A stretch of DNA of 64,000 bases from Flavobacterium sp. I3-2 (GTDB lineage Bacteria > Bacteroidota > Bacteroidia > Flavobacteriales > Flavobacteriaceae). Positions 3,195 through 21,193 of the stretch are shown in pieces. The notes below the pieces were generated by a model. The model was not told the DNA's origin. It searched no databases and saw nothing but the letters and a program-made list of their open reading frames with translations. Position numbers and translations under genes: made by a program. Numbering within the stretch: the first letter of the stretch is position 1; every line of letters begins with the position of its first letter. The stretch covers positions 2,976,001-3,040,000 of the forward strand of contig NZ_CP058306.1 of the NCBI RefSeq assembly GCF_013389595.1, read 5' to 3'.

Positions 3195-4430
3195 ATGAAA
3201 ATCTTAATCACCAATATAAAAGAACTACTTCAGGTCAGAGAAATCAGTATTGACAAAGTATCTGGAAGTGAAATGAAAATTTTACCATCGATCAAAAACG
3301 CATTTTTATATCTTGAAAATGATTTGATTTCTGATTTTGGAAAAATGGAAAATTGTCCAAATATAATTGATGCAGAAATTTATGATGCAGCTGGAAAAAT
3401 TGTTTTACCAACTTGGATAGATAGCCACACGCATTTGGTTTACGCTGGAAGCCGTGAACAAGAATTTGTTGATCGAATCAATGGATTATCGTACGAAGAA
3501 ATTTTTAATCGAGGTGGTGGAATTTTAAACTCTGCCAAAAAACTACAAGAAACGACAGAAGAAGATTTATACGAACAATCTAAAGTTCGCTTGGAAGAAG
3601 TGATGCTTCAAGGCACAGGCGCAATTGAAATCAAGTCGGGATATGGATTGACATTAGAAGCAGAAATGAAAATGCTACGTGTAATTAAACGTTTGAACGA
3701 AAATTATCCAATCGAAATCAAGGCTACATTTTTGGGAGCTCACGCATTTCCTTTGTCATATAAAGACAATCATAAAGCCTACATTGACTTAATTTGTGAT
3801 GAAATGATTCCAAAAATTGCAGAAGAAAAACTAGCTGATTATGTTGATGCTTTCTTGGAATCAGGTTATTTTTCTGTTGAAGAAACAACGCGAATCATGG
3901 AAGTCGGAAATCAATATGGTTTGAAAAGTAAAATACATGTTAATCAGTTTACTGCAATTAATGGAATTGAAGCTTGTGTAAAAAATAATGCTTTATCAGT
4001 AGACCATCTAGAGATTGTAACCGATGAAGATATTGAAGTTCTAAAAAACAGTGTAACTATGCCAGTTGCTTTGCCGACTTGTTCCTATTTCATTTCGATT
4101 CCATACACGCCTGCAAGAAAAATGTTAGAAGCAGGATTACCTTTGGCATTGGCTTCTGATTTTAATCCGGGAACAACTCCTTCAGGAAATATGAATTTTG
4201 TTGTTGCGACGGCTTGCATAAAAATGAAAATGACCCCAGAAGAAGCAATCAATGCTGCAACAATCAATGCTGCTTATGCAATGGATTTATCAAACACTCA
4301 CGGAAGTATAACAAAAGGTAAAAAAGCAAGTATTATTATCACCAAACCAATTGAATCTTTTTATCAAATTCCATATGCATTTGGAAGCAATTTAATAGAG
4401 AAAGTAATTATAAACGGACAGTTCATGTAA
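3195..4430 (+). CDS. hutI: Imidazolonepropionase (histidine degradation)
   Basis: HutI hydrolyses 4-imidazolone-5-propionate to N-formimidoyl-glutamate, step three of histidine breakdown. At 411 residues it has the usual length. The amidohydrolase metal motif DSHTHLVYAG is present with the paired histidines at 78 and 80. EIKSGYGLTLE, LGAHAFP, KIHVNQF, VDHLEIV and ASDFNPGT follow in family order, supplying further metal and catalytic residues. No signal peptide, so cytoplasmic. It precedes hutG by about 210 bp on the same strand; hutH and hutU are not in the window. Confidence 0.96.
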   Translation: MKILITNIKELLQVREISIDKVSGSEMKILPSIKNAFLYLENDLISDFGKMENCPNIIDAEIYDAAGKIVLPTWIDSHTHLVYAGSREQEFVDRINGLSYEEIFNRGGGILNSAKKLQETTEEDLYEQSKVRLEEVMLQGTGAIEIKSGYGLTLEAEMKMLRVIKRLNENYPIEIKATFLGAHAFPLSYKDNHKAYIDLICDEMIPKIAEEKLADYVDAFLESGYFSVEETTRIMEVGNQYGLKSKIHVNQFTAINGIEACVKNNALSVDHLEIVTDEDIEVLKNSVTMPVALPTCSYFISIPYTPARKMLEAGLPLALASDFNPGTTPSGNMNFVVATACIKMKMTPEEAINAATINAAYAMDLSNTHGSITKGKKASIIITKPIESFYQIPYAFGSNLIEKVIINGQFM

Positions 4431-4436
4431 CAAAAA

Positions 4437-4462
4437 ACACACTAAGCTTGCACTTAGTGTGT
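4437..4462. terminator. Hairpin after hutI, orientated for minus-strand transcripts
   Basis: A perfect 10-bp stem (ACACACTAAG/CTTAGTGTGT) with a 6-nt loop begins seven bases after the hutI stop. On the plus strand it is followed by a run of A, not T. Read on the minus strand the stem is followed by a T run, so as an intrinsic terminator it would stop antisense transcription entering hutI. It may also protect the 3' end of the hutI mRNA. Confidence 0.55.
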
Positions 4463-4639
4463 AAAAAAAAAATAGTTATGAAAAAGATTTTATAATCGAT
4501 ACAATCGACTTATATTTACTCATATCAAATTTACAAATAATTATCTTACAATCAACACTTTAATATATAATTAATACTAATTTTATTATAAAATAAATCT
4601 ATAGTCATTGAATTTACTAATGATTCCAATCATTTACTT

Positions 4640-5680
4640 ATGAATAACTTTTCATTTTTTAACATTTCAGATAGAAATAAATTAGTTGATCTTCGAGTTG
4701 GAGAAATCAAATTTGGAGAACGAATTGATTTTTTAGATTCTAATCAAACTATTGATTCATTTTTAGCAGAAACAGCATCTAAATATATCATTTTCGGAAT
4801 TTGCGAATCAATTGGTGTTAAAGCGAATTTTGGTAGAATTGGTACAGAAAATACTTGGCAAATTGCTTTAAAATCACTTTTAAACATTCAACATAACAAA
4901 ACTTGTAAAGGAAATAATGTTGGTGTTTTGGGATATTTTAATTTTGAAGAAGAAAATCAATTAGCAGCAAATTTAAATCCTTCAATAAAAGAAGAACGTA
5001 AACAATTATTTAAACTTGTTGAAAAAATTGATAAAGAAATCTCATTTTTAGTTTCAAAAATTGTCAAAGCGAATAAAATTCCAATCATTATTGGCGGAGG
5101 CCACAATAACGCTTATGGTAACATTAAAGGATTAGCACTAGCTAAAGGACGCGCAGTGAATGTAATTAATTTTGATGCGCATACCGATTTTCGTCCTTTA
5201 GAAGGAAGACATAGCGGAAATGGATTTTCATATGCTTTTGAAGAAGATTTCTTAGGTAATTATTTCATATTTGGAATTCATGAAAACTACACTTCAAAAG
5301 AAATTTTTTCGAGAATAAAAGAAAACAGCCAACGTGTAAAGTTTAATACGTATGAGCAAATGGAAATTCGTTTAGAAAAAGATTTCAAGATGGAATTAAA
5401 ATATGCTGCTAAGCACATCAAAGAAAATTCTTTTGGAATTGAAATCGATTTAGACGCGATAATTCACATGCCATCAAGCGCAATGAGTTATTCTGGTTTT
5501 TCTACAAAAAAAGCCAGACAATTTGTAAACTATTATGCAAATTTAGAAAACGTTGCTTATCTACATATTTGCGAAGGTGCACCAAATTTTGAATTGGAAG
5601 AAAACAAAGCCGTTTTAGGCAAATTTATTAGTTATTTAATTACTGATTTTATAAAACCTAATCTAGAAGTAATTGAATAA
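4640..5680 (+). CDS. hutG: Formimidoylglutamase, arginase/agmatinase family
   Basis: A 346-residue ureohydrolase-family enzyme. All binuclear Mn2+ ligands are visible: GGGHNNAYG (H155), NFDAHTDFRP (D179, H181, D183) and EIDLDAI (D270, D272). Coming directly after hutI on the same strand, it most likely hydrolyses N-formimidoyl-L-glutamate to glutamate and formamide, completing histidine degradation. Flavobacterial HutG proteins carry an N-terminal extension of about 120 residues before the core, as here. Arginase or agmatinase activity is the alternative; context favours HutG. Confidence 0.88.
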   Translation: MNNFSFFNISDRNKLVDLRVGEIKFGERIDFLDSNQTIDSFLAETASKYIIFGICESIGVKANFGRIGTENTWQIALKSLLNIQHNKTCKGNNVGVLGYFNFEEENQLAANLNPSIKEERKQLFKLVEKIDKEISFLVSKIVKANKIPIIIGGGHNNAYGNIKGLALAKGRAVNVINFDAHTDFRPLEGRHSGNGFSYAFEEDFLGNYFIFGIHENYTSKEIFSRIKENSQRVKFNTYEQMEIRLEKDFKMELKYAAKHIKENSFGIEIDLDAIIHMPSSAMSYSGFSTKKARQFVNYYANLENVAYLHICEGAPNFELEENKAVLGKFISYLITDFIKPNLEVIE

Positions 5681-5692
5681 AAACATTAAATA

Positions 5693-5729
5693 AAAAAGTG
5701 GAATTTTCGATTTGAAAATTCCACTTTTT
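5693..5729. terminator. Bidirectional terminator after hutG
   Basis: A perfect 16-bp inverted repeat (5693-5708 with 5714-5729, loop of 5 nt) has A runs on the left and T runs on the right. It begins 13 bases after the hutG stop and sits in a tail-to-tail intergenic space, so it can end transcripts from both directions. Confidence 0.85.
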
Positions 5730-5791: not shown

Positions 5792-7933
5792 TTAATTAGC
5801 ATTAATAATTGCTAAACCATTTCTACCTGAAGCTACAAATAAATAACCATTTTTAGCATATACATAATTCGCAGATTTTTGATCTACTGTTGAATTTGTT
5901 GTATTTAATCTAAAATGTCCAACATATTCTAAAGTATTTTTATTTAAAGCAACAACTCCATCACCCCCATTAGCAATATAAACAAAACATCCATCTACAG
6001 TAACTGCGTTAGATCTTCCGTTGTTTTTCAACACTTTATAACCATCTAAACCTCTAAATTCATTTGGAATAAATTGTGCTTTTAATTCACCAGTTGTCAT
6101 ATCAAATTTGGCTACTCCTTTGTCACTAAATGCAGCATAAACATAATCTTTATTAGCTGGATCAGAATCTAATGCTAAAGTATTTTTACCATCAGTTACA
6201 TTTAATTCAATTGATTGATAGGTTTTAACAGGATTGAAACGACTTGCTCCAGTTTCATCAGCAAATCTAATATATGGTACTTTGTTATTTAAAGCTAAGT
6301 AAACTTGATTGTTTGCATTTGCAACTACATATTTTGCACCCACATTATTATCAACAATAGAATTTAATGTAAAATCAGAATTTAATTTCATTAACCCTCC
6401 ATTTGTTCCGCTAGATGTTAACCAAATATCATTTCCATTGAAATAAATATTCTTAGCAGATAAAGAAGGTAAATTAGTTGACTTAATTGCATCTAAAGAA
6501 TTTGTAAACATTCCATCAACTAATGGAACAGTGTACATAATTGCGCCATTTTTATTATTACCAACAGCATACAATGTTTCGTTGTGGATTTCTAAAGAGT
6601 TAAATTCTGCTTTGTTAAAATCAGCTTGAGCAATAAGAACAGGATTTGAACCAGCAATATCAAATACACGTACACTTCCGTAAGGAGCATCTCCAAATTC
6701 TTCATCATTTGTGTGGTAAGAAACATAAGCTTTACCATTTTCAACTCTAACATCTGTTGCACTTAATGTAATTTCTACACCATTTGCATTTATTTTTGGG
6801 CTAGCAAAAATTCCTGAATAATTTAAGTTGATTGAAGTAGCCGTACAAGAAATAGTACCTAAAGTAACATCAATACAACCATCATTAGCTATATAAGTAT
6901 TGTGATTTAAAACTACTTCTGAAGCTATTTTTAACTGATTTGCTGTTAAGTTTGTATTAATATCAATACCACCTTTAAAAGCAGGATTTGCATTCATATT
7001 ACCTAAAGTAACACCTGAACCTAAATTAATTCTTGCTCTATTGGTAAGTGTATTTACAGATGAATTCTCAACTAAACCATCAATACTTAATTGTCCGTTT
7101 ATTACATCTGTAAACGATCCGCCTGATACATTAATACGTCCATTTCCGTTAATAGAAAAACCGTTTTTAAAAGTAACCTTAGATTCATTAAAAATTTTCC
7201 CATTAAACTGTGTGTTTTTTTCGAAAGTAACGTTACATTTATTATTTATAATACTATTTCCATTTACAGTAAAATTTTGTGAACCATTAAAAACAAGTGT
7301 TTTGTAGTTATTTAAAATACCGTCAATTGTGTTTGATTTGTAAGTAAAAACACCGAAGTTATCTAATTCACCATTACCATTTAAATGAATAATAGTTTGA
7401 GTTCCAAAGGTAGCATTTGGTCCAACAACTAATTTACCATTAGCTGGTACATTAATTTGGTTGGTAGAAGATACTGTTCCTTCTACATAAACTTCTGCAG
7501 CTCCATTAAAATTCAAAGTTCCTGAATATGTACCTTGGATAATTAATTTAGCTCCTGAAACTAAGTTGATACTTCCGCTAAAAGATTCTCCTGTTGGAAC
7601 GAAATAAACTTTACCGCTTTCAGTATTAACGTTAGAATTATTAGCTAATGTAACAAGATTGATAGCTCCTGTTACAGCTTGATTTTGATAAGTTGGCAAT
7701 GAATTTCCAGAACGAGCTGAATATCCATTTATAAGATTAATTTTAGAATTATTGCTTTCTGAATAATGATTCAATAAACTATTTCCGTATGTAATAGTAA
7801 CATCGTCATTACTTAGAACTTTAGACTCTAAATTGTTGTTTGTTGTTTCTGTTGAATCATCACTCGAACATCCTACTAGAGCAAAACAAAGTGCTGCGCC
7901 TAAGAATGTTAATTTAAATTTTTTGTTTTTCAT
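5792..7933 (-). CDS. Surface lipoprotein with beta-helix-like and beta-propeller-like regions
   Basis: A 713-residue protein. It begins with a lipoprotein signal peptide (MKNKKFKLTFLGAALCFALVGC, lipidated Cys22). SSDDS follows the Cys, resembling the acidic export signal that sends Bacteroidota lipoproteins to the cell surface. Residues about 75-390 are short Asn/Gly/Val-rich repeats (GTYSGTLNFNGAAEVYVEG type) typical of a beta-solenoid. Residues about 400-713 look like a beta-propeller of LVIVD type (SVRVFDIAG, GVVALNKNTLEYVGHF, LFVASGRNGLAIINAN). Function unknown; it could bind polysaccharide or other surface material. It lies 110 bp downstream of the exopolysaccharide cluster on the same strand but has its own promoter box and terminator. 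Confidence 0.7.
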   Translation of the reverse strand: MKNKKFKLTFLGAALCFALVGCSSDDSTETTNNNLESKVLSNDDVTITYGNSLLNHYSESNNSKINLINGYSARSGNSLPTYQNQAVTGAINLVTLANNSNVNTESGKVYFVPTGESFSGSINLVSGAKLIIQGTYSGTLNFNGAAEVYVEGTVSSTNQINVPANGKLVVGPNATFGTQTIIHLNGNGELDNFGVFTYKSNTIDGILNNYKTLVFNGSQNFTVNGNSIINNKCNVTFEKNTQFNGKIFNESKVTFKNGFSINGNGRINVSGGSFTDVINGQLSIDGLVENSSVNTLTNRARINLGSGVTLGNMNANPAFKGGIDINTNLTANQLKIASEVVLNHNTYIANDGCIDVTLGTISCTATSINLNYSGIFASPKINANGVEITLSATDVRVENGKAYVSYHTNDEEFGDAPYGSVRVFDIAGSNPVLIAQADFNKAEFNSLEIHNETLYAVGNNKNGAIMYTVPLVDGMFTNSLDAIKSTNLPSLSAKNIYFNGNDIWLTSSGTNGGLMKLNSDFTLNSIVDNNVGAKYVVANANNQVYLALNNKVPYIRFADETGASRFNPVKTYQSIELNVTDGKNTLALDSDPANKDYVYAAFSDKGVAKFDMTTGELKAQFIPNEFRGLDGYKVLKNNGRSNAVTVDGCFVYIANGGDGVVALNKNTLEYVGHFRLNTTNSTVDQKSANYVYAKNGYLFVASGRNGLAIINAN

Positions 7934-7983: not shown

Positions 7984-8043
7984 AAATATACAAACTAGAT
8001 AATCGTTTTGTTATTTTATCTTTTTCTTGTTGTTTTTTCATTT

Positions 8044-9351
8044 TTACATTCCATATTCCTTTGCTTTTTTCGAAGTTTTTAACGGATTCCAAACATCTTT
8101 ATAGGAATCATAAAAAAACAACTCATCCAAATATGAAATTGTACGAACAATACGCATATAATATCCCATATAAATTGGAAAGAGAGGAAGATATATCAAT
8201 TTAGAAAGAAGTTTTTTCTTGTCTTTATTAACCGATACAGCAAACATGTATTGACCAAATGTAATTGCAAGGTAAATGGTATATTTAAAAGGAAACCAAA
8301 TTAGCATGAAAGTTGGATCGGTTAAAATAATTTTGAACATATAGAAAAACCATAAAAAATCTAAAACAAGACTAAAAAAAACATTTTCAAAAAATGACAT
8401 AAAATTTATTAATCTAAAATTTTTATCAGGCATCCAAACATCTTTATGTTTTCTTAATCTAAATCGAATTAATGATCTTGACCATCTCAATCTTTGTTTA
8501 GTCAAAGCAGTCCAAGTAACTGGAACGTGCGTTCTACAAATCGCTTCTTCTTCAAAAACTGTATGGTAATCAATCTTTCTAATTTTTACCGTAATATCTC
8601 CATCCAAACCTGGACCAATATCCCAACCTCCAATTCGTTCTAAAACTTCTCTTGGAAATGCACCAAATGCACCAGAAATAATTTTATATATTTTTAATTT
8701 TGATTGAACAATTCTAGAAACACTAATTGATTGCAAATATTCTAAAAATTGCATTGTTGTAGTTAATGATTCTTCTTCATTTCTTACAATTAAATTTCCA
8801 CCAACTCCACCAATATTTTCAAATCTATAAAAAGGTATGAGTACTTTTTCAATAGCGTCACTATCTAATGATGAATCTGCATCTAAATGAACTACATATT
8901 TCCCGTTTGAATATCGAAGTCCCAAATTAGCAGCAGAAGCTTTACCACCTCTTTCTTTAACAGAAATAAATCTATCTATTTGACCATATTTTTCAAAAGA
9001 ACGTGCAATTATTGCTGTATCATCCGTAGAACCATCATCGACAACAATCAACTCTAAATTTTTATATGTCTGTCTATTCATCGACTGAACAAGCTTGAAA
9101 AGATGTTTACCTTCATTATGTCCAGGAACCAAAACAGTTACTAAAGGCATTTCATTTAACAAATCTTCTCTAGCTTTTTCCCATAAATGCTTTGTTTTTC
9201 TTCTACTGAATTTACTCCAATATAAGGCAATACCCTCTACGATAAAAAACCTAGGAATATCTAAAACAAAAATATACCATCCCCATTTCATCAAAGTTTG
9301 CCAATCAAGAACATGCCACATATAGAAATATCTATCCCATAATTCTATCAT
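8044..9351 (-). CDS. Processive family-2 glycosyltransferase, exopolysaccharide synthase
   Basis: A 435-residue membrane GT2 enzyme of the PgaC/NodC/cellulose-synthase type that would polymerise a beta-linked polysaccharide from nucleotide sugars. All processive GT2 motifs are visible: VVDDGSTDD (D105, D106), HLDADSS (DAD 157-159), GLDGD with D250/D252 as catalytic base region, and QRLRW at 286-290. A hydrophobic segment lies near residues 20-45, and two or three more lie in the C-terminal third, as needed for a channel. No PilZ domain is present. Its ATG overlaps the stop of the upstream zinc-ribbon gene by 4 bp (ATGA), implying translational coupling. The sugar is unknown; poly-N-acetylglucosamine is one possibility. 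Confidence 0.87.
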   Translation of the reverse strand: MIELWDRYFYMWHVLDWQTLMKWGWYIFVLDIPRFFIVEGIALYWSKFSRRKTKHLWEKAREDLLNEMPLVTVLVPGHNEGKHLFKLVQSMNRQTYKNLELIVVDDGSTDDTAIIARSFEKYGQIDRFISVKERGGKASAANLGLRYSNGKYVVHLDADSSLDSDAIEKVLIPFYRFENIGGVGGNLIVRNEEESLTTTMQFLEYLQSISVSRIVQSKLKIYKIISGAFGAFPREVLERIGGWDIGPGLDGDITVKIRKIDYHTVFEEEAICRTHVPVTWTALTKQRLRWSRSLIRFRLRKHKDVWMPDKNFRLINFMSFFENVFFSLVLDFLWFFYMFKIILTDPTFMLIWFPFKYTIYLAITFGQYMFAVSVNKDKKKLLSKLIYLPLFPIYMGYYMRIVRTISYLDELFFYDSYKDVWNPLKTSKKAKEYGM

Positions 9352-10310
9352 TTCTCTAAAACTTGTTGAAAACCTAAATTAGTTAATTCGTATGCATATA
9401 TTTTTCTTACAATCAATTCATCTGGACTTTGTTCTAATTTACAATCTACACAATGTACTCCAATTGGTGCTTCTTGAAATTCATGATTACATTTTTTATT
9501 CTTACAAAAGAAAATTTTCCCAGGCTTGTCGTAATCAACTCCTAAATTTTTTAATTCAGACGAACATTTAGGACAAACTAATTGATCTTTTAATACAAAA
9601 TCTTTGTCAACACCAACATAAGCACATCTGAAGTGATGAATAAGATTTCTAACTTTTAAGTTATGTTCAGAACATTTTGGACATTTTTCTCTAAAATTTA
9701 AAAATCCACTGTGACAATTTTTACACAAATGAGAAGTATCAACATAATTTCTAGACAATGAACCTCCAAGAAAAGACTCTCTTAATAACATTCGTGATTT
9801 TGCATAAGCTTCTTTTTTTTCTTCAAAAAAAGCTTCAATTCTGGTATATGAATAACCAGATAAAGACTTTCTATTAATTATTGGAACGATATTTTTTTTG
9901 CGAGTATAATAATAATCTAGAATTTTTAAAGTGTAAAATTCATCTGATTTTTTATCAAAAACATCATATTTAAATGCGTTCTTTTCAATAAAATTGGTAA
10001 TCGTTTCTATATATGGAATTTTGTCAATAAAATTTAACCATTTGATATATCCATCACTTAAGCTCTTTAATACATCAGCACTTAAAGCATAAGTTTTTTT
10101 TAATTCTTTTTGTAAAAAAATTGGTTTTAAATAAACTCGTATATCTTCTGAACGAATAATTTGATATAAAAAACGTTTTACTAATTTTGGATCATTATGA
10201 TTAACCACCCATACATCAGCTAATTTTGGGTCAGGTAAAATATTATTTACTATCGCATATTCTAAAAGCAAAACTTTCTTTCCATGAATTTCAATTATAC
10301 TATCTAACAT
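9348..10310 (-). CDS. Multi-zinc-ribbon protein resembling the TackOD1 domain
   Basis: A 320-residue soluble protein with no signal peptide. Residues 1-180 are mixed alpha/beta and unrecognised. Residues about 190-295 carry CxxC knuckles at 196-199, 210-213, 246-249 and 287-290, plus Cys269/Cys274. Between them are HHFRCAYVG (225-233) and GVDYDKPGK (257-265). This arrangement fits my memory of TackOD1, a Cys-rich output domain often found with signalling modules. The gene sits between the HlyD-like and glycosyltransferase genes of a tight operon, so a cytoplasmic role controlling polymer synthesis, perhaps by metal or redox sensing, is inferred. The exact family needs a profile search. Confidence 0.6.
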   Translation of the reverse strand: MLDSIIEIHGKKVLLLEYAIVNNILPDPKLADVWVVNHNDPKLVKRFLYQIIRSEDIRVYLKPIFLQKELKKTYALSADVLKSLSDGYIKWLNFIDKIPYIETITNFIEKNAFKYDVFDKKSDEFYTLKILDYYYTRKKNIVPIINRKSLSGYSYTRIEAFFEEKKEAYAKSRMLLRESFLGGSLSRNYVDTSHLCKNCHSGFLNFREKCPKCSEHNLKVRNLIHHFRCAYVGVDKDFVLKDQLVCPKCSSELKNLGVDYDKPGKIFFCKNKKCNHEFQEAPIGVHCVDCKLEQSPDELIVRKIYAYELTNLGFQQVLEK

Positions 10311-10318
10311 AATAAACT

Positions 10319-11362
10319 TTATATATTAATTAATCCCTTTCTAACTTTTACAGGAATATTACTTACTTTCAATTTATCCCAACCTTTACAATTTGTTGGT
10401 AAAATTTCAACAACAACTCCATGTTTATAATCAATTATAGAATTATCAACAATAACATCATCTTTAGTTTCAGAAACAGCATACATTTTACTAACTTTCC
10501 CTGCAAGATTTTTGTATCCATATGGTAGTACCACAACAACATCATCCCCTATTTCGAATTTATCTAAATCAGACATTTCGATATAAGCGCGAACAAAATA
10601 AACAGGTCTGATGATTGAAAAAACCTTTTCTGGTTTATAGCAAATTTGATTTTCTTGAACTACAATTCGATCTATTTTACCATCCACTGGCGAAATAAAA
10701 TACGTTTTTTGATTTGCATAATGTAAACCAACTTTATTTAATTGATTAGCATATGAAAGACTTTGAAGCATCTTTAAGCGTTCATTTACCAACACTTGAT
10801 ACTCAGCTTGAACCGTTGCAATTTCATATCTTGTATCATCAATTGATCTATCGACATTTGCTAATTCATTTTGCGTGATTACATTTAAATAAACTAATTT
10901 TTCTTTTCTTGTATGTTCAGACAACCAGTAATTTAATCGTTTTTTCAAGGCAACTAAAAAAAGCCTTCTTTTTTCTATTTGAGCTTCGATTGCAATTAAA
11001 GCATCTTTTCCATTATTTTGATTTCGTAGCATTTGTAGCGAATCTAAATGGATGTTTTTATCATTTGAATTTTCGTTAAATCTTTCATAAGCAAACAAAG
11101 TATCCCCTTTAAGTACATAATCATCCTCATGTATTTTATAATCTAAGACACGAATATCATTTGTAAATTTTACATCGTATTGTTCTTGCAATAAAATTCC
11201 ATGAGCATAATCAAAAAACCAAGGTGTTGTAAGCCATCTTATAAAAGACCCTAACAATAAAACCAATACTCCAATATATAACCATCTATCCCATCTTCTT
11301 CTTTTTGATTTTTCTGGTTGCGAGTTATCGACTACAATATCTTTTGTGAATTTGACTTTCAT
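10319..11362 (-). CDS. HlyD/Alg44-like membrane fusion protein for polysaccharide export
   Basis: A 347-residue periplasmic adaptor. A single transmembrane helix lies at about residues 28-46 (RWLYIGVLVLLLGSFIRWL), followed by a split biotinyl-lipoyl domain (EDDYVLKGDTLFAYE, then FISPVDGKIDRIVVQENQ). An alpha-helical hairpin of about 110 residues separates the two halves, and a beta-barrel region follows (FEIGDDVVVVLPYG). This is the layout of adaptors that bridge an inner-membrane synthase to an outer-membrane channel. Its start overlaps the stop of the upstream TolC-like gene by 4 bp and its stop lies 8 bp before the zinc-ribbon gene, so all are probably one operon. Confidence 0.82.
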   Translation of the reverse strand: MKVKFTKDIVVDNSQPEKSKRRRWDRWLYIGVLVLLLGSFIRWLTTPWFFDYAHGILLQEQYDVKFTNDIRVLDYKIHEDDYVLKGDTLFAYERFNENSNDKNIHLDSLQMLRNQNNGKDALIAIEAQIEKRRLFLVALKKRLNYWLSEHTRKEKLVYLNVITQNELANVDRSIDDTRYEIATVQAEYQVLVNERLKMLQSLSYANQLNKVGLHYANQKTYFISPVDGKIDRIVVQENQICYKPEKVFSIIRPVYFVRAYIEMSDLDKFEIGDDVVVVLPYGYKNLAGKVSKMYAVSETKDDVIVDNSIIDYKHGVVVEILPTNCKGWDKLKVSNIPVKVRKGLINI

Positions 11363-13422
11363 TCATTTGGATTTAATAGCGCTGAAACATCGTAATAACT
11401 AATTTCTGTAATTCCTTGATTTTTCAATTCTTTCAATGCCATTTTTAATTCTTCGTCATTTTTAAAATCGCTTAATCGCAAAACCCAAACAAAATTATCT
11501 TTTAAAATATTTCTCAATTTTTCAGTGCGTTTTAATAACTTATTTTGATCCACATTTTCATAAGCCATTATATAAGTTTTGATTTTTAATTTTCTCAAAA
11601 CTTTTGCGTTTTTTTCGGTTAAATTCATTGGTACACTTACACTTAACTGCATATTATTTTCGTTGCACAATTGGTTAACTTGTGTGAAAATAGTATTCAT
11701 GTTTTCGACGTAGCTATCCATATTTTCACGATAATCAGAAAAAGTATGAGGTTCAATATCCAAATGTATTCCTGTGTAAGTATTTTTATCTATGTGATTG
11801 ATTTTTCGAATCAATTTTTTTAATCCAAGCTGATTTTGTGCATATGAATTCTCTCCTATTAATCGATGAATTTTAATTTGATTTTGATTGGCTTGAACAA
11901 CAAAATCATTTAACTTTTCATCATTATTTTCTCCAGGAGAAAGAAATACGGTTTTTATTTTATTCTCATTTAGAATGGTTACCAAAGATTCATTGGTTTC
12001 TGTTTTAAATGTATTACTCCATAAATAGGTAGAACTCGGTGTTATTGAACTTTCTTCTTTCAATGAAATCTCAAAAGGTGTTTCTAAAACATTTGAATTA
12101 AAAACTTGCGAAGTTGTTTTTTTACTCTGTTCAGTGATTAATTGATATGTTATAAAATACTCCGAAAGCGTTTGATTAACATCTAAAATTTCAATCTTCT
12201 TTTTTAGAAATTGCATAGCAAAATCGATGTATTTTTCTGGACTGAAATTCATAATATGTTTCTCATAAATCTGAATTTCATTATCTAAAAGCGCATCAAT
12301 CAGTTTCAAATCATTTTGTAAATTCTTTAATTCATTCTTTTTAGAATAAAAATCAAAATAGAGTTTCTCTAAACGCTCTTGAGTTTTTAATTTTTGAAGT
12401 TCTAATTTTTCATCAAAACTTTCGATTTTATATTCAAGAGCATGATCTTTTCCAAACCGAATTGGAACTGATAACGAAGCTCCAACGCTAGCAAACGAAC
12501 GATTAAAATCGCCTTCTGAATTAAAAACATTATATCTTACTTTGGTTCTGAAACTCGGTCGATCCGAATTTTTTCGGTCTTTTCGAATTAACTCTTTCTC
12601 AAGTTCAACAATTTCTGAATCAATTGCTAAAAGATCTGTCAATTCTTTTTTGTCAATATTTAGCAAATCATAATTGACATTCGGAATATTTCCATATTCA
12701 CTTAAAAGCGATTGATTATCTTGATTTGATAAAAAATTTTCACTCAAATCGAGATTGTTTTTTATCTTAGAATAATCGTTTTCAACTTTTATTTTTTCAG
12801 GAAGATTAATCAATTTTGAAGCAAATAATTTGTTTGTGTAATCAACTTTTGCTTTTAGGAAATCAGCGTATTTTTTTAAAATTTCAATACGTTGCATATC
12901 ATAAATATATTGAAGTGTTTCTATTTTTTTTTGCGAAACATCATTTTTCTTCAATAACATCAATTCTAATGAATCTTTTCGATTTTCGATAAGATTTAAT
13001 TTTAAATCATTTTTGTGTTTAAAATAACTACCTTCTCCAAAAATTACCCAATCTAATCCTGTTGAAACCTTTGACCTAAAATAAATATCTTCATCATCAG
13101 AACCACCTAATCCAAAATTATGAGTAAAGTCAGAAACCCATTTCAATCCAATATTCGAAACTGAATTTTGTTCGTTAAAATTTTGGCTACTACTTTTTTT
13201 ATTAACTAGATTTTCATTCTGATCAATAAACTTTAGTAAAATTTCTTTGTCAGAAGATTGTGTTTTATGATAGACTTGTTCAACTAATTTTTTACTAGCA
13301 AAAAAAAGTGCGTTGTATTCAATTACTAGTTGATCTAACTCTTGATTTGATTTTTTACTTGTTTGCGCATTACTATCAACACAAAACAAAAAAATTAAAA
13401 TCAAGCTCCATAATAATCTCAT
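11359..13422 (-). CDS. TolC-like outer-membrane protein fused to a TIM-barrel hydrolase-like domain
   Basis: A 687-residue protein with a signal peptide (residues 1-19, ending SNAQ). Residues about 25-455 are long amphipathic helices with short strand segments (FRTKVRYNVFNSEGDFNRSF, ASLSVPIRFGKD), like a TolC-family channel. Residues about 470-685 resemble a TIM-barrel glycosidase (KTVFLSPG, GIHLDIEPHT with the LDIEPH motif at 554-559, LSVSVPMN, IKTYIMAY, GITEISYYD). Glu557 is the candidate catalytic acid. As first gene of the cluster it would let polysaccharide cross the outer membrane while the fused domain trims or modifies it. Each half is recognisable, but the enzymatic activity is inferred. 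Confidence 0.72.
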   Translation of the reverse strand: MRLLWSLILIFLFCVDSNAQTSKKSNQELDQLVIEYNALFFASKKLVEQVYHKTQSSDKEILLKFIDQNENLVNKKSSSQNFNEQNSVSNIGLKWVSDFTHNFGLGGSDDEDIYFRSKVSTGLDWVIFGEGSYFKHKNDLKLNLIENRKDSLELMLLKKNDVSQKKIETLQYIYDMQRIEILKKYADFLKAKVDYTNKLFASKLINLPEKIKVENDYSKIKNNLDLSENFLSNQDNQSLLSEYGNIPNVNYDLLNIDKKELTDLLAIDSEIVELEKELIRKDRKNSDRPSFRTKVRYNVFNSEGDFNRSFASVGASLSVPIRFGKDHALEYKIESFDEKLELQKLKTQERLEKLYFDFYSKKNELKNLQNDLKLIDALLDNEIQIYEKHIMNFSPEKYIDFAMQFLKKKIEILDVNQTLSEYFITYQLITEQSKKTTSQVFNSNVLETPFEISLKEESSITPSSTYLWSNTFKTETNESLVTILNENKIKTVFLSPGENNDEKLNDFVVQANQNQIKIHRLIGENSYAQNQLGLKKLIRKINHIDKNTYTGIHLDIEPHTFSDYRENMDSYVENMNTIFTQVNQLCNENNMQLSVSVPMNLTEKNAKVLRKLKIKTYIMAYENVDQNKLLKRTEKLRNILKDNFVWVLRLSDFKNDEELKMALKELKNQGITEISYYDVSALLNPNE

Positions 13423-13511: not shown

Positions 13512-14378
13512 TTAATTTGTGATTTTTACACTGTTTAACAAAAATTCACGCATTTCACTTGGTGATTTTCCTAAATTTTTCTTAACAAAGGTGCTGAAAT
13601 TTGCTTCATCAGCAAATCCAAGTTCAATTGCGATTTCTGAAATATTTAATATTGAGTTTTCTAACATACGAAGTGCTTCATTAGAAACTTTTTCAACTAC
13701 AATTCGTTTTGCACCTTTTCCAATAACAGCTTTTGTCATAACAGAAAGTCGTTGTGGCGAAACATTGAGTTTTTCAGAATAAAAAGAAACACTTTTTTCC
13801 TTTTTAAAATATTTTTGTAACAAAACTCTAAATTTATTTACCTTGTCCAAATATGTAGAATGTGCACAAGTTTCTTCACAAGACTTTTCTTCTAAACTTA
13901 AAAGTCCGTCAAGCAAAAGAATTTCAACACAATTATGAGCAACTGCTATATAAATTCCAATTTCTTTTTCTTTATATAAATTAATTCGTTCTATAATTAA
14001 TGCTTTGAGAACTTCCTTTGATCCAATAGCCGGAGAAACATATATGTCGTGAATATCATTAAAATATAATTCGGAATTAAGTATAAAACTATCTTTAGCA
14101 GATTTTTCATAAAAAGAAGACGAAAAAGCAACGATTGTATTTTCTGAATTTCCATATTCATAAGTTACATTTTTGTGCGGAGCAATAAAAACTAAATTAT
14201 TAGCTTCGATAAAATAAGGTCTTCCTTCAACTATAATTTTTGTTTCTTCAAATACAATAAATATTATAAAATATTCCATTGTATTAAAATCAGAAGAACC
14301 ATTATTTTTAGTTATAAGATTATCTATCGAAATAATACTAAATCCTTTAATTTCTAACTCTTTTGAAACAGCGTACAT
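13512..14378 (-). CDS. AraC-family transcriptional regulator
   Basis: A 288-residue regulator. The C-terminal 85 residues hold a double helix-turn-helix of AraC type (SFYSEKLNVSPQRLSVMTK, then NISEIAIELGFADEANFSTFVKKNLGKSPSEMRE). The N-terminal part is a cupin-like sensor (YFIEANNLVFIAPHKNVTYE). It is transcribed in the same direction as the exopolysaccharide cluster, 89 bp before it, but that gap contains the operon's own promoter box. Regulation of the cluster by this protein is plausible but unproven; the ligand is unknown. Confidence 0.87.
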   Translation of the reverse strand: MYAVSKELEIKGFSIISIDNLITKNNGSSDFNTMEYFIIFIVFEETKIIVEGRPYFIEANNLVFIAPHKNVTYEYGNSENTIVAFSSSFYEKSAKDSFILNSELYFNDIHDIYVSPAIGSKEVLKALIIERINLYKEKEIGIYIAVAHNCVEILLLDGLLSLEEKSCEETCAHSTYLDKVNKFRVLLQKYFKKEKSVSFYSEKLNVSPQRLSVMTKAVIGKGAKRIVVEKVSNEALRMLENSILNISEIAIELGFADEANFSTFVKKNLGKSPSEMREFLLNSVKITN

Positions 14379-16786: not shown

Positions 16787-19700
16787 ATGAGACAACTTTA
16801 CTTTTTATTACTATCATTATTTTTTGTAATACAAATACAAGCTCAAGACTACACTACTTTGCACGTCACTTCTGGTTTTAATGTAGATATTATTGCAGAA
16901 AATTCTCCAGCATCTACCTACACTACAGCATCGGTTGACGCAGCAAGCAATGGTGCTAATACAGCATTGATGAGCGTTACTTACCCCAATGCCACGGTTG
17001 GTTTACCAGCTAATGGCTTAATTACTTCTATTGCAACAAGTACACCAGGATTAACCTTTCAATTAGCACCATATATTCAGAATAACAGTTTAAAGATTAA
17101 TGATAATAATGGTACGGGTACTTTGGTGATTCAAACAACTAATAAATTAAGTAAACTCTTTATTCTAGCTACTTCGGGAAGTGGTATCTCAAATTTTACA
17201 GGAACCATAACCTTTACGGATGGAACTACGCAAACACTTGGTTCTCAAATGGTACCTGATTGGTACAACTACGGTACACCAGAAGTTGCAATCAGAGGAA
17301 TTGGAAGAGTACCTCTCTTTGGTGCTCAAAATCCAGATAACAATATGTTTGATCCAAAACTATTTCAAATAGCCATTGATATTGATCCTCTCAATCAAAA
17401 TAAAATCATCCAAGAAGTTGCCATTACAAAAACCAACCCAGCTAGTAGTTTTTTGCATATTTTTGCTTTATCTGGTGAAATTACACAAACTTGTTTTAAA
17501 CCATTAAACATAACAGTACAAACAATTACTAAAAACTCTGCACAACTGTTATGGCATGCTCCTACACAGGGAAATCTACCTGCATTAGGATACAAAATAG
17601 AAGTTAGAACAAGTGGGCAACCTGGTGATGCCACAGGGCTAGTTCAAACACTTAATACTACTAATTTATCTGAGACGATAATAGGTTTAAATTCTGAAAC
17701 AGAATATCTTATCTATGTTCAATCACTTTGCGCAACAACAGATGAAAGTACTTGGAGTGGAATATCTTTTACTACATTATGTAATCTTCTGGAATATGAA
17801 TTAACCACAAGTGCTTCAGATTTATCGTTCTGTGATTCTCATGAGGTTACTTTAGAAGTAAATACACAAGGAATCGTGAATTGGTACAATTCAGCAACAT
17901 CAACAACTCCAATCCATTCAGGAAATACCTATACAACAACCGTATCTGCTACTTCTTCATTCTGGTATCAAGTGTCTTCTCTTGAATCAACGGGTCCGTT
18001 AAATGCGGCAGCAGTAAGTACAACATCAGGCAATTGGAGTACAGAATGGGATGTGTATTTTACTATTTTTGAACCAACAAAATTAAAGAGTATTGATATC
18101 TATCCTTCTACTGCCGGACAAACTGGTAGAATGATCTTTAAACAAAGAGGAGCAACAGGTTCCGCAACCGTTGGTACCATTGATTATACCACCGTTGGAG
18201 CAAACAGAACTGTAAAACAAGTAGTTCCTATTGATCTTCAATTACTACCAGGAACCTATGTAATAGAAACCACTTTACCTTCTGATGGAATATTGAGAAA
18301 TACGAATGGTGCCTCTTATCCTTATAGTTCAGCAGTAGCTTCTATTACAGGCAATGAATACCTTCCTTCTTATTATATGGGATATTACAACTGGATTTTT
18401 GAAACAGGATGTACCTCACCCCGTACGGAAGTAGTAGTAACCATTAATGAAACCCATGCACCTACATCAACTTCACAAACATTTTGTACGGGTGCAACCA
18501 TTGCTAGCTTAACAGCAACAGGTTCAAACATCAAATGGTATAATGCTGCTACAGGTGGAACGCCTTTAGCTTCAACAACTGTCTTAACATCTGGAACCTA
18601 TTATGTAAGCCAAACTTTAAACGCTTGCGAAAGTAATAGAACAGCTGTTGTGGTAACCATTAATAATACACCTGCGCCTACAGCTAGTGCACAAACATTC
18701 TGTTTTGCTGAAAACAAAACGATTGCAGATTTAGTTGCAACAGGAACTAATTTAAAATGGTATGATGAAGCAACAGGTGGAAACGCTTTAGCTTCAACAA
18801 CTGTTTTAACTTCAAAAAGTTATTTTGTTTCACAAACGGTTTCGAATTGTGAATCAGAAAGAACAGAAGTTATCGTTACGATTACGTCAAACCCGAATGC
18901 ACCAACAGCAGTTGCTCAAACATTTTGTTTTGCTGAAAACAAAACAATTGGAGATTTAGTTGCAATAGGTTCAAATATCAAATGGTATGACGCAGCAACA
19001 GGTGGAAATGTATTAAATGCAACAACTGTTTTAACTTCAAAAACTTATTTTGTTTCACAAACCGTTTCGAATTGTGAATCTGAAAGAACAGAAGTAATCG
19101 TTACAATTACACCGAATCCAGTGGCTCCAACGGCGACAGCTGCAACATTCTGTTTTGCTGAAAACAAAACGATTGCAGATTTAGTTGCAACAGGAACTAA
19201 TTTAAAATGGTATGATGTAGCAACAGGTGGAAATGTATTAGATGCAACAACTGTTTTAACTTCAAAAAGCTACTTTGTTTCGCAAACCGTTTCGAATTGT
19301 GAATCTGAAAGAACTGAAGTTATCGTTACGATTACTCCAAATCCGAATGCTCCAACTTCAACTGCTCAAACATTTTGTTTTGCTGAAAACAAAACGATTG
19401 CTGATTTAGTTGTAACAGGAATTGATGTAAAATGGTATGACGTAGCAACAGGTGGAAACGCTTTAGTTCCAACAACTATGTTAGCTACGAAAAGTTACTT
19501 TGTTTCACAAACGGTTTCGAATTGTGAATCTGAAAGAACAGAAGTTATCGTTACGATTACTCCAAATCCGATGGCTCCAACAGCAACTGCTCAAACATTT
19601 TGTTTTGCTGAAAACAAAACAATTGGAGATTTAGTTGCAATAGGTTCAAATATCAAATGGTATGACGTAGCAACAGGTGGAACTGCTTTAACTCCAACAA

Positions 19701-21193
19701 CTGTTTTAACTACAGGAAGTTATTTTGTTTCGCAAACGGTTTCGAATTGTGAATCTGAAAGAACAGAAGTTGTTGTTACGATTACTCCAAATCCGATGGC
19801 TCCAACGGCAATTGCTCAAACATTCTGTTTTGCTGAAAACAAAACGATTGCGGATTTAGTAGCTACAGGAACTAATTTAAAATGGTATGATGTAGCAACA
19901 GGTGGAAATGCTTTACCTTCAACAACTGTTTTAACTACAAAAAGTTATTTTGTTTCACAAACCGTTTCGAATTGTGAATCTGAAAGAACAGAAGTTATCG
20001 TTACGATTACTCCAAATCCGATAGCGCCAACAGCAAACGCTATTCAAGAATTTTGTTCAAATACTAATTCTAAAATTTCAAACATTGAGATTTCTGGTTC
20101 AAATATTAAATGGTATGCTTCAATAAATTCTACTACTGAATTAAATGAAAATACTTATTTAACAAATGCAAGTACCTATTTTGCAACTCAAACAATTAAT
20201 GGATGCGAAAGTGAACTTAGAACACAAGTAACAGTTCAAATTTCAACGCCTCCTACTTTACCAACGGGAGATAGTATTCAAACTTTTTGTGGAAATGCAA
20301 CGATTGCTGATTTACAAATTAATGCCATTACTGGCGCGGAGTTAATTTGGTACACAACATCATATTCAAATACGGTATTACCAACATCAACAGCTTTAGC
20401 AAATGCAACTTACTATGTTGCACAAAAAGTTGGCGCTTGTATTTCTGAAAGAAAAGCTGTAACTGCTAGAATCATTAATTTAAGTCCACCGAATATAGGC
20501 AATTTTGAATTTTGTGGAAGTGCACAGGTTTCAGATTTATATATTCCTACACCAACTGGAGTAACTTATAAATGGTATAATTCACCATCGAATCCAAATG
20601 AATTACAGCCTTACGATTCACTAACAACAGGAACTTACTTTGTTTCAAAAAGTCAGTATAATTGTGAAACTGCAAGAGCTGCTGTATCCGTTGTGATTAA
20701 AGATTTACCAGAAAGTCCAACGGGTATTTCTCCACAATCATTTGTTGAAGGTTCGGTTATAAATCAAATTTTAATTAATCCTACAACTGCAGTTTGGTAT
20801 ATTACAGAAAATGATGCAATAACGAGTACGAATCCATTATCTCCAAACATGCCGTTAGTTAACGGAACGACATATTATGCAGTAAATATTGGAACAAACG
20901 GATGTCCGAGTTTACCTTTTGCTGTAACCGTGGATGTTTATTTATCTAACGATGCATTTGAAATGGATAAACTAAAATATTATCCGAATCCGGTTAACGA
21001 TAAATTAAACATTGTTTATTTTGAAAACATCATTCAAGTTGATGTGTTTGATTTAACTGGAAGAAACGTAAAATCAGTATTTACTAGCAGTCAAAACATC
21101 GAAGTGGATTTATCTGATTTAAGTACTGCGACTTATATGATTCAACTTAAAACCGAATCGAAACAACAATTTATTAAAATCATTAAAAAATAA
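16787..21193 (+). CDS. Giant T9SS-secreted Ig-like repeat protein, adhesin 1
   Basis: A 1468-residue secreted protein. The signal peptide is residues 1-20 (ending IQAQ). A novel N-terminal region runs to about residue 235. A fibronectin type III-like domain (about 236-335) and a further Ig/lectin-like stretch (340-560) follow. Six 75-residue Ig-like modules occupy residues 631-1080, each with TFCFAENKTI, KWYD.ATGG, SYFVSQTVSNCESERTEV. Divergent modules of the same kind run to about 1390. Residues 1391-1468 form a type A T9SS sorting domain (YYPNPVNDKLNI, VFDLTGRNVKS, ATYMIQLKT, FIKIIKK). It is probably displayed on the surface as an adhesin. Its last 450 or so residues are nearly identical to those of the next gene. 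Confidence 0.85.
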   Translation: MRQLYFLLLSLFFVIQIQAQDYTTLHVTSGFNVDIIAENSPASTYTTASVDAASNGANTALMSVTYPNATVGLPANGLITSIATSTPGLTFQLAPYIQNNSLKINDNNGTGTLVIQTTNKLSKLFILATSGSGISNFTGTITFTDGTTQTLGSQMVPDWYNYGTPEVAIRGIGRVPLFGAQNPDNNMFDPKLFQIAIDIDPLNQNKIIQEVAITKTNPASSFLHIFALSGEITQTCFKPLNITVQTITKNSAQLLWHAPTQGNLPALGYKIEVRTSGQPGDATGLVQTLNTTNLSETIIGLNSETEYLIYVQSLCATTDESTWSGISFTTLCNLLEYELTTSASDLSFCDSHEVTLEVNTQGIVNWYNSATSTTPIHSGNTYTTTVSATSSFWYQVSSLESTGPLNAAAVSTTSGNWSTEWDVYFTIFEPTKLKSIDIYPSTAGQTGRMIFKQRGATGSATVGTIDYTTVGANRTVKQVVPIDLQLLPGTYVIETTLPSDGILRNTNGASYPYSSAVASITGNEYLPSYYMGYYNWIFETGCTSPRTEVVVTINETHAPTSTSQTFCTGATIASLTATGSNIKWYNAATGGTPLASTTVLTSGTYYVSQTLNACESNRTAVVVTINNTPAPTASAQTFCFAENKTIADLVATGTNLKWYDEATGGNALASTTVLTSKSYFVSQTVSNCESERTEVIVTITSNPNAPTAVAQTFCFAENKTIGDLVAIGSNIKWYDAATGGNVLNATTVLTSKTYFVSQTVSNCESERTEVIVTITPNPVAPTATAATFCFAENKTIADLVATGTNLKWYDVATGGNVLDATTVLTSKSYFVSQTVSNCESERTEVIVTITPNPNAPTSTAQTFCFAENKTIADLVVTGIDVKWYDVATGGNALVPTTMLATKSYFVSQTVSNCESERTEVIVTITPNPMAPTATAQTFCFAENKTIGDLVAIGSNIKWYDVATGGTALTPTTVLTTGSYFVSQTVSNCESERTEVVVTITPNPMAPTAIAQTFCFAENKTIADLVATGTNLKWYDVATGGNALPSTTVLTTKSYFVSQTVSNCESERTEVIVTITPNPIAPTANAIQEFCSNTNSKISNIEISGSNIKWYASINSTTELNENTYLTNASTYFATQTINGCESELRTQVTVQISTPPTLPTGDSIQTFCGNATIADLQINAITGAELIWYTTSYSNTVLPTSTALANATYYVAQKVGACISERKAVTARIINLSPPNIGNFEFCGSAQVSDLYIPTPTGVTYKWYNSPSNPNELQPYDSLTTGTYFVSKSQYNCETARAAVSVVIKDLPESPTGISPQSFVEGSVINQILINPTTAVWYITENDAITSTNPLSPNMPLVNGTTYYAVNIGTNGCPSLPFAVTVDVYLSNDAFEMDKLKYYPNPVNDKLNIVYFENIIQVDVFDLTGRNVKSVFTSSQNIEVDLSDLSTATYMIQLKTESKQQFIKIIKK
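18677..20026 (+). repeat. Six tandem 225-bp modules in adhesin 1
   Basis: Module starts fall at 18677, 18902, 19127, 19352, 19577 and 19802, exactly 225 bp (75 codons) apart with no indels. Each encodes one Ig-like unit with a CFAENKTI start and a SNCESERTEV end. Third-position variation is low between units, showing recent amplification or homogenisation. Confidence 0.92.

Follow-up and report, generated by a model that had tools for sequence, protein, structure and literature searches.

TackOD1 zinc-ribbon proteins adjoin a clade of putative polysaccharide synthases in a conserved, putative export cassette found in Flavobacterium sp. I3-2 and other bacteria

Synthase-dependent export of exopolysaccharides is a known kind of system. 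A route made of a family 2 glycosyltransferase (GT2), an HlyD-like protein and a TolC-like protein has been proposed in cyanobacteria (PMC12430437), and GT2-HlyD pairs have been reported in rhizobia (PMC9495663). We analyzed a 64,000-nucleotide stretch of the genome of Flavobacterium sp. I3-2 (contig NZ_CP058306.1, positions 2,976,001 to 3,040,000 of the forward strand; the window), in which an operon of four genes encodes a putative machine of this kind together with a TackOD1 protein. TackOD1 has been described since 2018 as a domain of obscure function (PMC5847659). We report here that genes for TackOD1 proteins consistently adjoin genes of one GT2 clade.

The cyanobacterial cellulose system XcsA-XcsB-TolC resembles the window operon in its GT2, HlyD-like and TolC-like route, which is accompanied by a separate endoglucanase, and its export model is called unproven by its authors (PMC12430437). 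It differs in that XcsA is a PilZ-bearing cellulose synthase, the genes are scattered in T. vulcanus, the hydrolase is unfused, and the accessible part of the report contains no TackOD1 (PMC12430437). The rhizobial BgsBA system for mixed-linkage glucan likewise combines a GT2 and an HlyD-domain partner, with a synthase control of the cyclic di-GMP (c-di-GMP) era (PMC9495663, PMC5567048). However, the C terminus of BgsA itself binds c-di-GMP (PMC9495663), and the accessible parts of the two reports mention neither TackOD1 nor a fused channel. The operon for an arabinose-containing polysaccharide of S. meliloti was considered as a possible known relative in view of its control by an AraC regulator; the accessible part of its description includes no TackOD1 or channel (PMC7902896). 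In PgaABCD, which makes the poly-N-acetylglucosamine of Escherichia coli, a glycoside hydrolase (GH) also works beside the exporter, and among named synthases the closest model is that of PgaC/IcaA, likewise a membrane GT2, with E. coli PgaC being found by our own GT2 profile at 1e-46. Nevertheless, the window GT2 scores under the PgaC cut-off and PgaC lies outside the TackOD1-linked branch described below; the window exporter is composed of TolC and HlyD proteins rather than the PgaA porin, TackOD1 stands in place of PgaD, and no deacetylase domain was matched in the window system. TackOD1 itself has been described in archaea as a domain with eleven cysteines and an HXXC motif, in architectures that include REC-TackOD1 and with some bacterial occurrences noted; there it is tied to thaumarchaeal type IV pilus loci, with no link to glycosyltransferases in the accessible parts of the reports (PMC5847659, PMC4858521).

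A literature search with little coverage of subscription papers retrieved no description of the system. An earlier note on this DNA had stated that its author knew of no characterized system with this layout. None was indeed found, also when one was sought as a refutation, although polymer export by GT2, HlyD and TolC proteins had already been proposed for cyanobacterial cellulose (PMC12430437). Within the reach of these searches, three features are new: the partnership with TackOD1, the breadth of its distribution and the fusion of a channel to a hydrolase-like domain.

The operon, with the domains and motifs of its products, is composed as follows.

11359..13422, minus strand: TolC-type outer-membrane channel with a predicted C-terminal GH18-like barrel, 687 residues (Pfam OEP)
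11362..12051, minus strand: predicted GH18-like TIM barrel, channel residues 458-687 (eight strands in the model)
11752..11766, minus strand: HLDIE, channel residues 553-557 (conservation in 58 sequences)
10319..11362, minus strand: HlyD/EmrA-type periplasmic adaptor, 347 residues (Pfam HlyD_3, profile match)
9348..10310, minus strand: TackOD1 protein, 320 residues, with a receiver-like N terminus and a TackOD1 zinc-ribbon domain (PF18551)
9975..10286, minus strand: receiver-like domain, residues 9-112 (fold resemblance)
9384..9935, minus strand: TackOD1 domain, residues 126-309, in which eleven Cys and one His are conserved (Pfam, alignment)
8044..9351, minus strand: membrane GT2, putative polysaccharide synthase, 435 residues (Glycos_transf_2)
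8482..8496, minus strand: QRLRW motif, GT2 residues 286-290 (sequence and alignment)

The spacing of the genes is that given in the earlier note, with a 4-bp overlap (11359-11362), an 8-bp gap (10311-10318) and a second 4-bp overlap (9348-9351, ATGA). The curated Pfam cut-offs of OEP, HlyD_3, TackOD1 and Glycos_transf_2 are exceeded by the respective proteins. Pfam, motifs and predicted folds bore out the parts list, namely, a TolC-type exporter with a fused domain, an HlyD adaptor, a metal-ribbon protein and a processive-type GT2.

The association of TackOD1 with GT2 was recovered in two unbiased samples. Among 296 Bacteroidota genomes, TackOD1 exceeded the cut-off in 10, corresponding to 11 stretches, and GT2 adjoined in all 11 (10/10 without the genome of the window). 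Among 398 Pseudomonadota genomes, TackOD1 exceeded the cut-off in 15, corresponding to 16 stretches, all of which had an adjoining GT2 (15/15 without the chosen centre, G352). Pooling of the samples with exclusion of the window genome and G352 gave 25 of 25 stretches, whereas none of the sub-cut-off TackOD1 matches (three in each sample) adjoined GT2. In the reverse search, from GT2 (tblastn against plasmids, 686 records), 12 records were examined among the matches listed, and a TackOD1 gene was found beside GT2 in 8 of them. These were identified by Pfam (L101 to L104) or by our own profile (L125, L127, L128 and L129), with one small gene intervening in L128. No TackOD1 was present beside GT2 in three of the 12 (L130, L131 and L132). 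In L126, from Sinorhizobium medicae, GT2 and HlyD are followed by an open reading frame (ORF) for a TackOD1-like zinc-ribbon protein of 109 residues (6260-6589), which resembles half a TackOD1 and is possibly a minimal form.

The window GT2 matched Glycos_transf_2 with 97.2 bits (cut-off, 23.3) and carries DDGS, DAD, DGD and QRLRW motifs, in keeping with the residue pattern of processive membrane GT2s (D, DxD, D, QxxRW). D105 to S108, D157 to D159, D250 to D252 and, within QRLRW, Q286, R287, R289 and W290 are invariant in 41 aligned GT2s. The protein is a putative polymer-making synthase of the processive type, as the earlier note had claimed; this was tested against placement in a non-processive family, and the best NCBIfam model was PgaC_IcaA, although the score of 172 bits is far below the equivalog cut-off of 422.3. 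The CelA model reached only 27.4 bits against a cut-off of 699.1, and a PilZ domain was likewise unmatched. A tree was built from 49 GT2 sequences after removal of 11 near copies; it includes 17 of the 79 GT2s from the cassette loci described below, and E. coli BcsA dropped out as a weak match. All 44 TackOD1-linked sequences and that of L126 (45 in total) were located on one side of a branch with a support of 97/80. The far side comprised E. coli PgaC, an XrtG-associated GT2 and two others, the placement of which is unsure because the tree program warned of long branches among these outside sequences. Judged by sequence, the window GT2 belongs to a widespread group of synthases that nearly always adjoins TackOD1.

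Scanning of 84,980 species genomes with a TackOD1 alignment identified 474 relatives. The 80 most similar were kept and form, with the window, a set of 81 loci that, by the way it was selected, favors the window. In this set, GT2 was found in 79 loci, HlyD in 78, the channel in 71 and the GH domain in 52. All four core genes were present in 70 of the 81 loci, with identical order and strand in 70/70, indicating that the four-gene neighborhood is not peculiar to the window genome. This conservation bears on the alternative that the channel and the adaptor form an efflux system next to which the GT2 is an unrelated chance neighbor. TolC and HlyD families are mostly components of efflux or protein secretion systems, but the cassette lacks an inner-membrane pump and the gene order is fixed across several phyla, making this alternative very improbable. 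In 8 of the 11 incomplete loci (L020, L031, L042, L050, L057, L071, L073 and L079), the locus ends, judging by its coordinates, before the place of the missing gene; this does not apply to L013, L078 and L080. In L013, a TackOD1 gene (8001-8948) is adjoined by a lipoprotein-family gene, with no GT2 in the 780 bases after it, and the same organism also has a complete cassette (L019).

The distance between the adaptor and TackOD1 genes exceeded 300 bp in 11 of the 70 complete loci, ten of which accommodate a dehydrogenase-family gene in a gap of ~1.4 to 1.9 kb. An extra ORF of about 110 to 150 codons was observed between these two genes in one Bacteroidota family (L090, 2469-2816; L091, 712-1065; L092, 2481-2870; L094, 2470-2910; L099, 2483-2815). 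The products matched the profile of the TackOD1 protein with E values of 2e-9 to 2e-12 and no convincing Pfam family. The window genome is that of a member of the Flavobacteriaceae near Paenimyroides, and the nearest named TackOD1 relative is that of P. tangerinum (87% identity). Since only 5 of 60 near relatives (own genome counted) and 2 of 37 genomes within the genus carry TackOD1, the distribution of the cassette is patchy. A mobilizable plasmid of Aeromonas caviae carries a set of TackOD1-GGDEF, GT2, TolC-GH and HlyD genes (L103, 5422-11244), so that a sister version of the cassette sits on a mobile element.

The window TackOD1 protein matched PF18551 with 158.2 bits (E value, 2.2e-46; cut-off, 32) and has the eleven cysteines and HXXC motif reported for the domain (PMC5847659). 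C196, C199, C210, C213, H225, C229, C246, C249, C269, C287 and C290 are invariant in 63 TackOD1 sequences, and C274 is conserved in at least 90%. The predicted model had a predicted local distance difference test (pLDDT) score of 94.7 and a predicted template-modeling score (pTM) of 0.84. Foldseek retrieved no match to the whole model at an E value of ≤0.001; the TackOD1 domain alone was barely probed, and we make no claim of a novel fold. The N-terminal domain only resembles a receiver in its fold; Response_reg was not matched at an E value of 1, and Asn37 aligns with a position that is Asp in 37 of the 63 long relatives. A relative from Palleronia has a real receiver domain (PF00072; E value, 8.9e-11). 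The long TackOD1 forms resemble the REC-GGDEF response regulators PleD and DgcR in having a receiver-like N terminus and a GGDEF-like C terminus, the latter matching GGDEF structures by profile (E value, 3e-13). They differ by the absence of the GG[DE]EF signature, which was found in none of 63 long forms; most relatives retain a GGDEF part without the signature, and the short-form group that includes the window protein lacks the whole domain.

TackOD1 proteins thus have the appearance of response regulators that have decayed: zinc ribbons are combined with a receiver-like part and, in most relatives, with a signature-less GGDEF domain. The earlier note had said that the regulator looks like a metal-binding protein and had contrasted the system with known ones under c-di-GMP or PilZ control. 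The first description is apt for a zinc-ribbon protein, but apparent derivation from a REC/GGDEF regulator makes ancestral ties to c-di-GMP signaling likely. The contrast agrees with the absence of any GGDEF, EAL or PilZ match in the window genome (a single 3.55-Mb contig). PgaD-like partners are constitutive synthase subunits. Similarly, within the same export machine, TackOD1 could be a zinc-stapled subunit that constitutively serves the assembly or stability of the synthase and carries no signal. Of all parts of the protein, the zinc ribbon varies least, its cysteines being retained where the receiver and GGDEF parts have degenerated or disappeared, and S. medicae has only the ribbon-like ORF beside GT2-HlyD. 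However, the receiver domain of the Palleronia protein and the histidine kinase or response-regulator genes that adjoin many loci suggest signaling, at least ancestrally. We regard this alternative as less likely than not.

The channel matched OEP with 27.9 bits (cut-off, 22) and TolC by Foldseek (E value, 5.7e-11), placing it in the TolC/OEP family; its AlphaFold model had a mean pLDDT of 83 and a pTM of 0.52. The adaptor matched HlyD_3 with 25.8 bits (cut-off, 22.2), and its profile (A8) matched the membrane fusion protein 8dck (E value, 3.2e-16) and EmrA 8zar (E value, 5.7e-10), as expected for an HlyD/EmrA-type protein. Profiles were needed, as phmmer searches of the PDB sequences with the window TackOD1, channel and adaptor gave nothing useful. 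The fused domain that the earlier note had called hydrolase-like is, in the predicted model, a TIM barrel of the GH18 (chitinase) fold with D-x-E and Tyr residues. The HLDIE segment corresponds to the last residues of the catalytic motif of GH18 enzymes. E557, M619 and Y621 are invariant and H553 and D555 at least 90% conserved across 58 sequences, whereas the GH18 Pfam model matched none of 21 members at an E value of 0.01 nor the window protein at an E value of 1. Fusion of the hydrolase to the exporter, also claimed in the earlier note, applies to 47 of the 52 loci with a GH domain; a separate gene was found in five, and the domain is absent from 19 of the 71 loci with a channel. In the sister Paenimyroides loci L007 and L008, the separate gene follows the lipoprotein gene. 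The separate genes of L007, L009 and L017 start with signal peptides as judged by eye, which supports a periplasmic location of the fused barrel. Some Bacteroidales channels (L024, L035 and L049) are 850 to 970 residues long, and the HLDIEPH motif has been lost from their GH-like domain, which may therefore only bind the polymer.

A nucleotide-sugar dehydrogenase family is present in 17 of the 81 loci. Of six proteins tested, four that are full length scored best with the model of TviB, which is the UDP-GlcNAc dehydrogenase of Vi antigen; the scores lie under the TviB cut-off and over that of the general model. Three weak but agreeing signs, namely, PgaC/IcaA as the nearest model, the chitinase-type barrel and these TviB-like dehydrogenases of relatives, argue for an amino-sugar polymer, most likely based on N-acetylhexosamine. 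Alternatively, the polymer could be a β-glucan or another neutral polymer, the GH18-like domain acting as a binding module. HlyD-partnered glucan synthases are known in rhizobia (PMC9495663) and cyanobacteria (PMC12430437), yet the three signs, together with the low CelA score of the GT2 and the conservation of E557 and Y621 in the GH18 fold, make a neutral polymer unlikely. An inverse association of the dehydrogenase with the GH domain (both, 2 loci; dehydrogenase only, 13; GH only, 50; neither, 6; Fisher test, 4e-8) was rejected as a real link. Absence of the GH domain maps to a single change on the tree, with no independent pair in support, and the pattern is treated as a clade difference.

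We consider it likely that the operon encodes a synthase-dependent exopolysaccharide machine in which TackOD1, and not c-di-GMP with PilZ, controls or holds the synthase. At the inner membrane, the GT2 would polymerize a nucleotide-activated sugar and feed the chain into the periplasm; the adaptor would link the GT2 to the channel, which would take the chain across the outer membrane. The barrel, tethered on the periplasmic side of the channel, would trim or clear chains. TackOD1, a presumed descendant of a receiver-zinc-GGDEF response regulator, would be the dedicated cytoplasmic partner of the GT2 and would switch or stabilize it. We infer the identity of the polymer, the enzymatic activities, direct contact between TackOD1 and GT2 and the mode of control, which is proposed to be no longer c-di-GMP dependent since the window lineage lost the GGDEF part and the receiver aspartate. 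This scheme of synthesis, handover, trimming and control is the one that uses every part.

Other features of the region are listed below.

5792..7933, minus strand: putative surface lipoprotein, 713 residues, lipobox LVGC by eye (family F5)
13512..14378, minus strand: AraC-type regulator, candidate transcriptional regulator (HTH_18, 53.5 bits)
5693..5729, both strands scored: weak terminator-like hairpin 3' of the lipoprotein gene

The lipoprotein family was found in 28 of the 81 loci; in 24 of these its gene immediately follows GT2 in the same orientation, and these include all 17 short-form loci having a GT2. The lipoprotein gene is thus probably a fifth member of the operon unit, and its product would probably hold or shape the polymer at the surface. 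The earlier note had proposed a complete path in four genes; the four do form an operon, but the lipoprotein gene also follows in all 17 closest complete relatives. DUF4114 was detected at the end of one Tenacibaculum relative of the lipoprotein, and a PHROGs search with the lipoprotein gave no match. The AraC-type family (F7) occurs in 8 of the 81 loci, upstream and on the same strand in five. The hairpin is considered weak because the region contains 4 terminator-like sites against a mean of 2.3 in shuffled sequences; a sigma-70 promoter scan found 49 sites, fewer than in shuffled sequences (58.4), and was not used. The GC content over the operon is low (0.25 to 0.29), as in neighboring DNA, and no recent transfer is therefore claimed. 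Two very large ORFs on the plus strand (16787-21193 and 21665-29539) are divergent from the operon; the first contains many near-identical repeats and a C terminus that by eye resembles a type IX secretion sorting signal. Downstream of the operon, the plus-strand region 3195-5680 appears by eye to encode two enzymes of histidine breakdown, an imidazolonepropionase and a formimidoylglutamase-like protein. In a marine member of the Flavobacteriaceae (L030, 527-3750), genes for H-NOX, a PAS histidine kinase, an Hpt-like protein and a LytTR response regulator are located directly upstream of the cassette. By clustering, an H-NOX family gene occurs in 8 of the 81 loci, of marine type, and was confirmed by Pfam in L030. 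The presence of these heme-nitric oxide-binding proteins beside the cassette suggests nitric oxide control of the polymer.

The constant proximity of TackOD1 to a single clade of synthases suggests a testable role for this domain. A broader proposal, to which we give slightly less than an even chance, is that bacterial TackOD1 is the obligate partner of this clade, a zinc-ribbon control subunit and former receiver-zinc-GGDEF regulator turned c-di-GMP-independent synthase switch by stepwise loss of the phospho-acceptor and of the GGDEF signature. It would then define a new class of synthase-dependent exopolysaccharide systems that spans at least six phyla-level lineages and in which many members have their hydrolase fused to the exporter. 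With the cassette, exopolysaccharide systems would gain a class that occurs in gut-type, soil, marine and symbiont bacteria, among them lineages in which no c-di-GMP proteins are detectable and the control of biofilm polymers is poorly understood. The channel-hydrolase fusion would be a ready-made construct with which to locate the trimming of chains along the export path.

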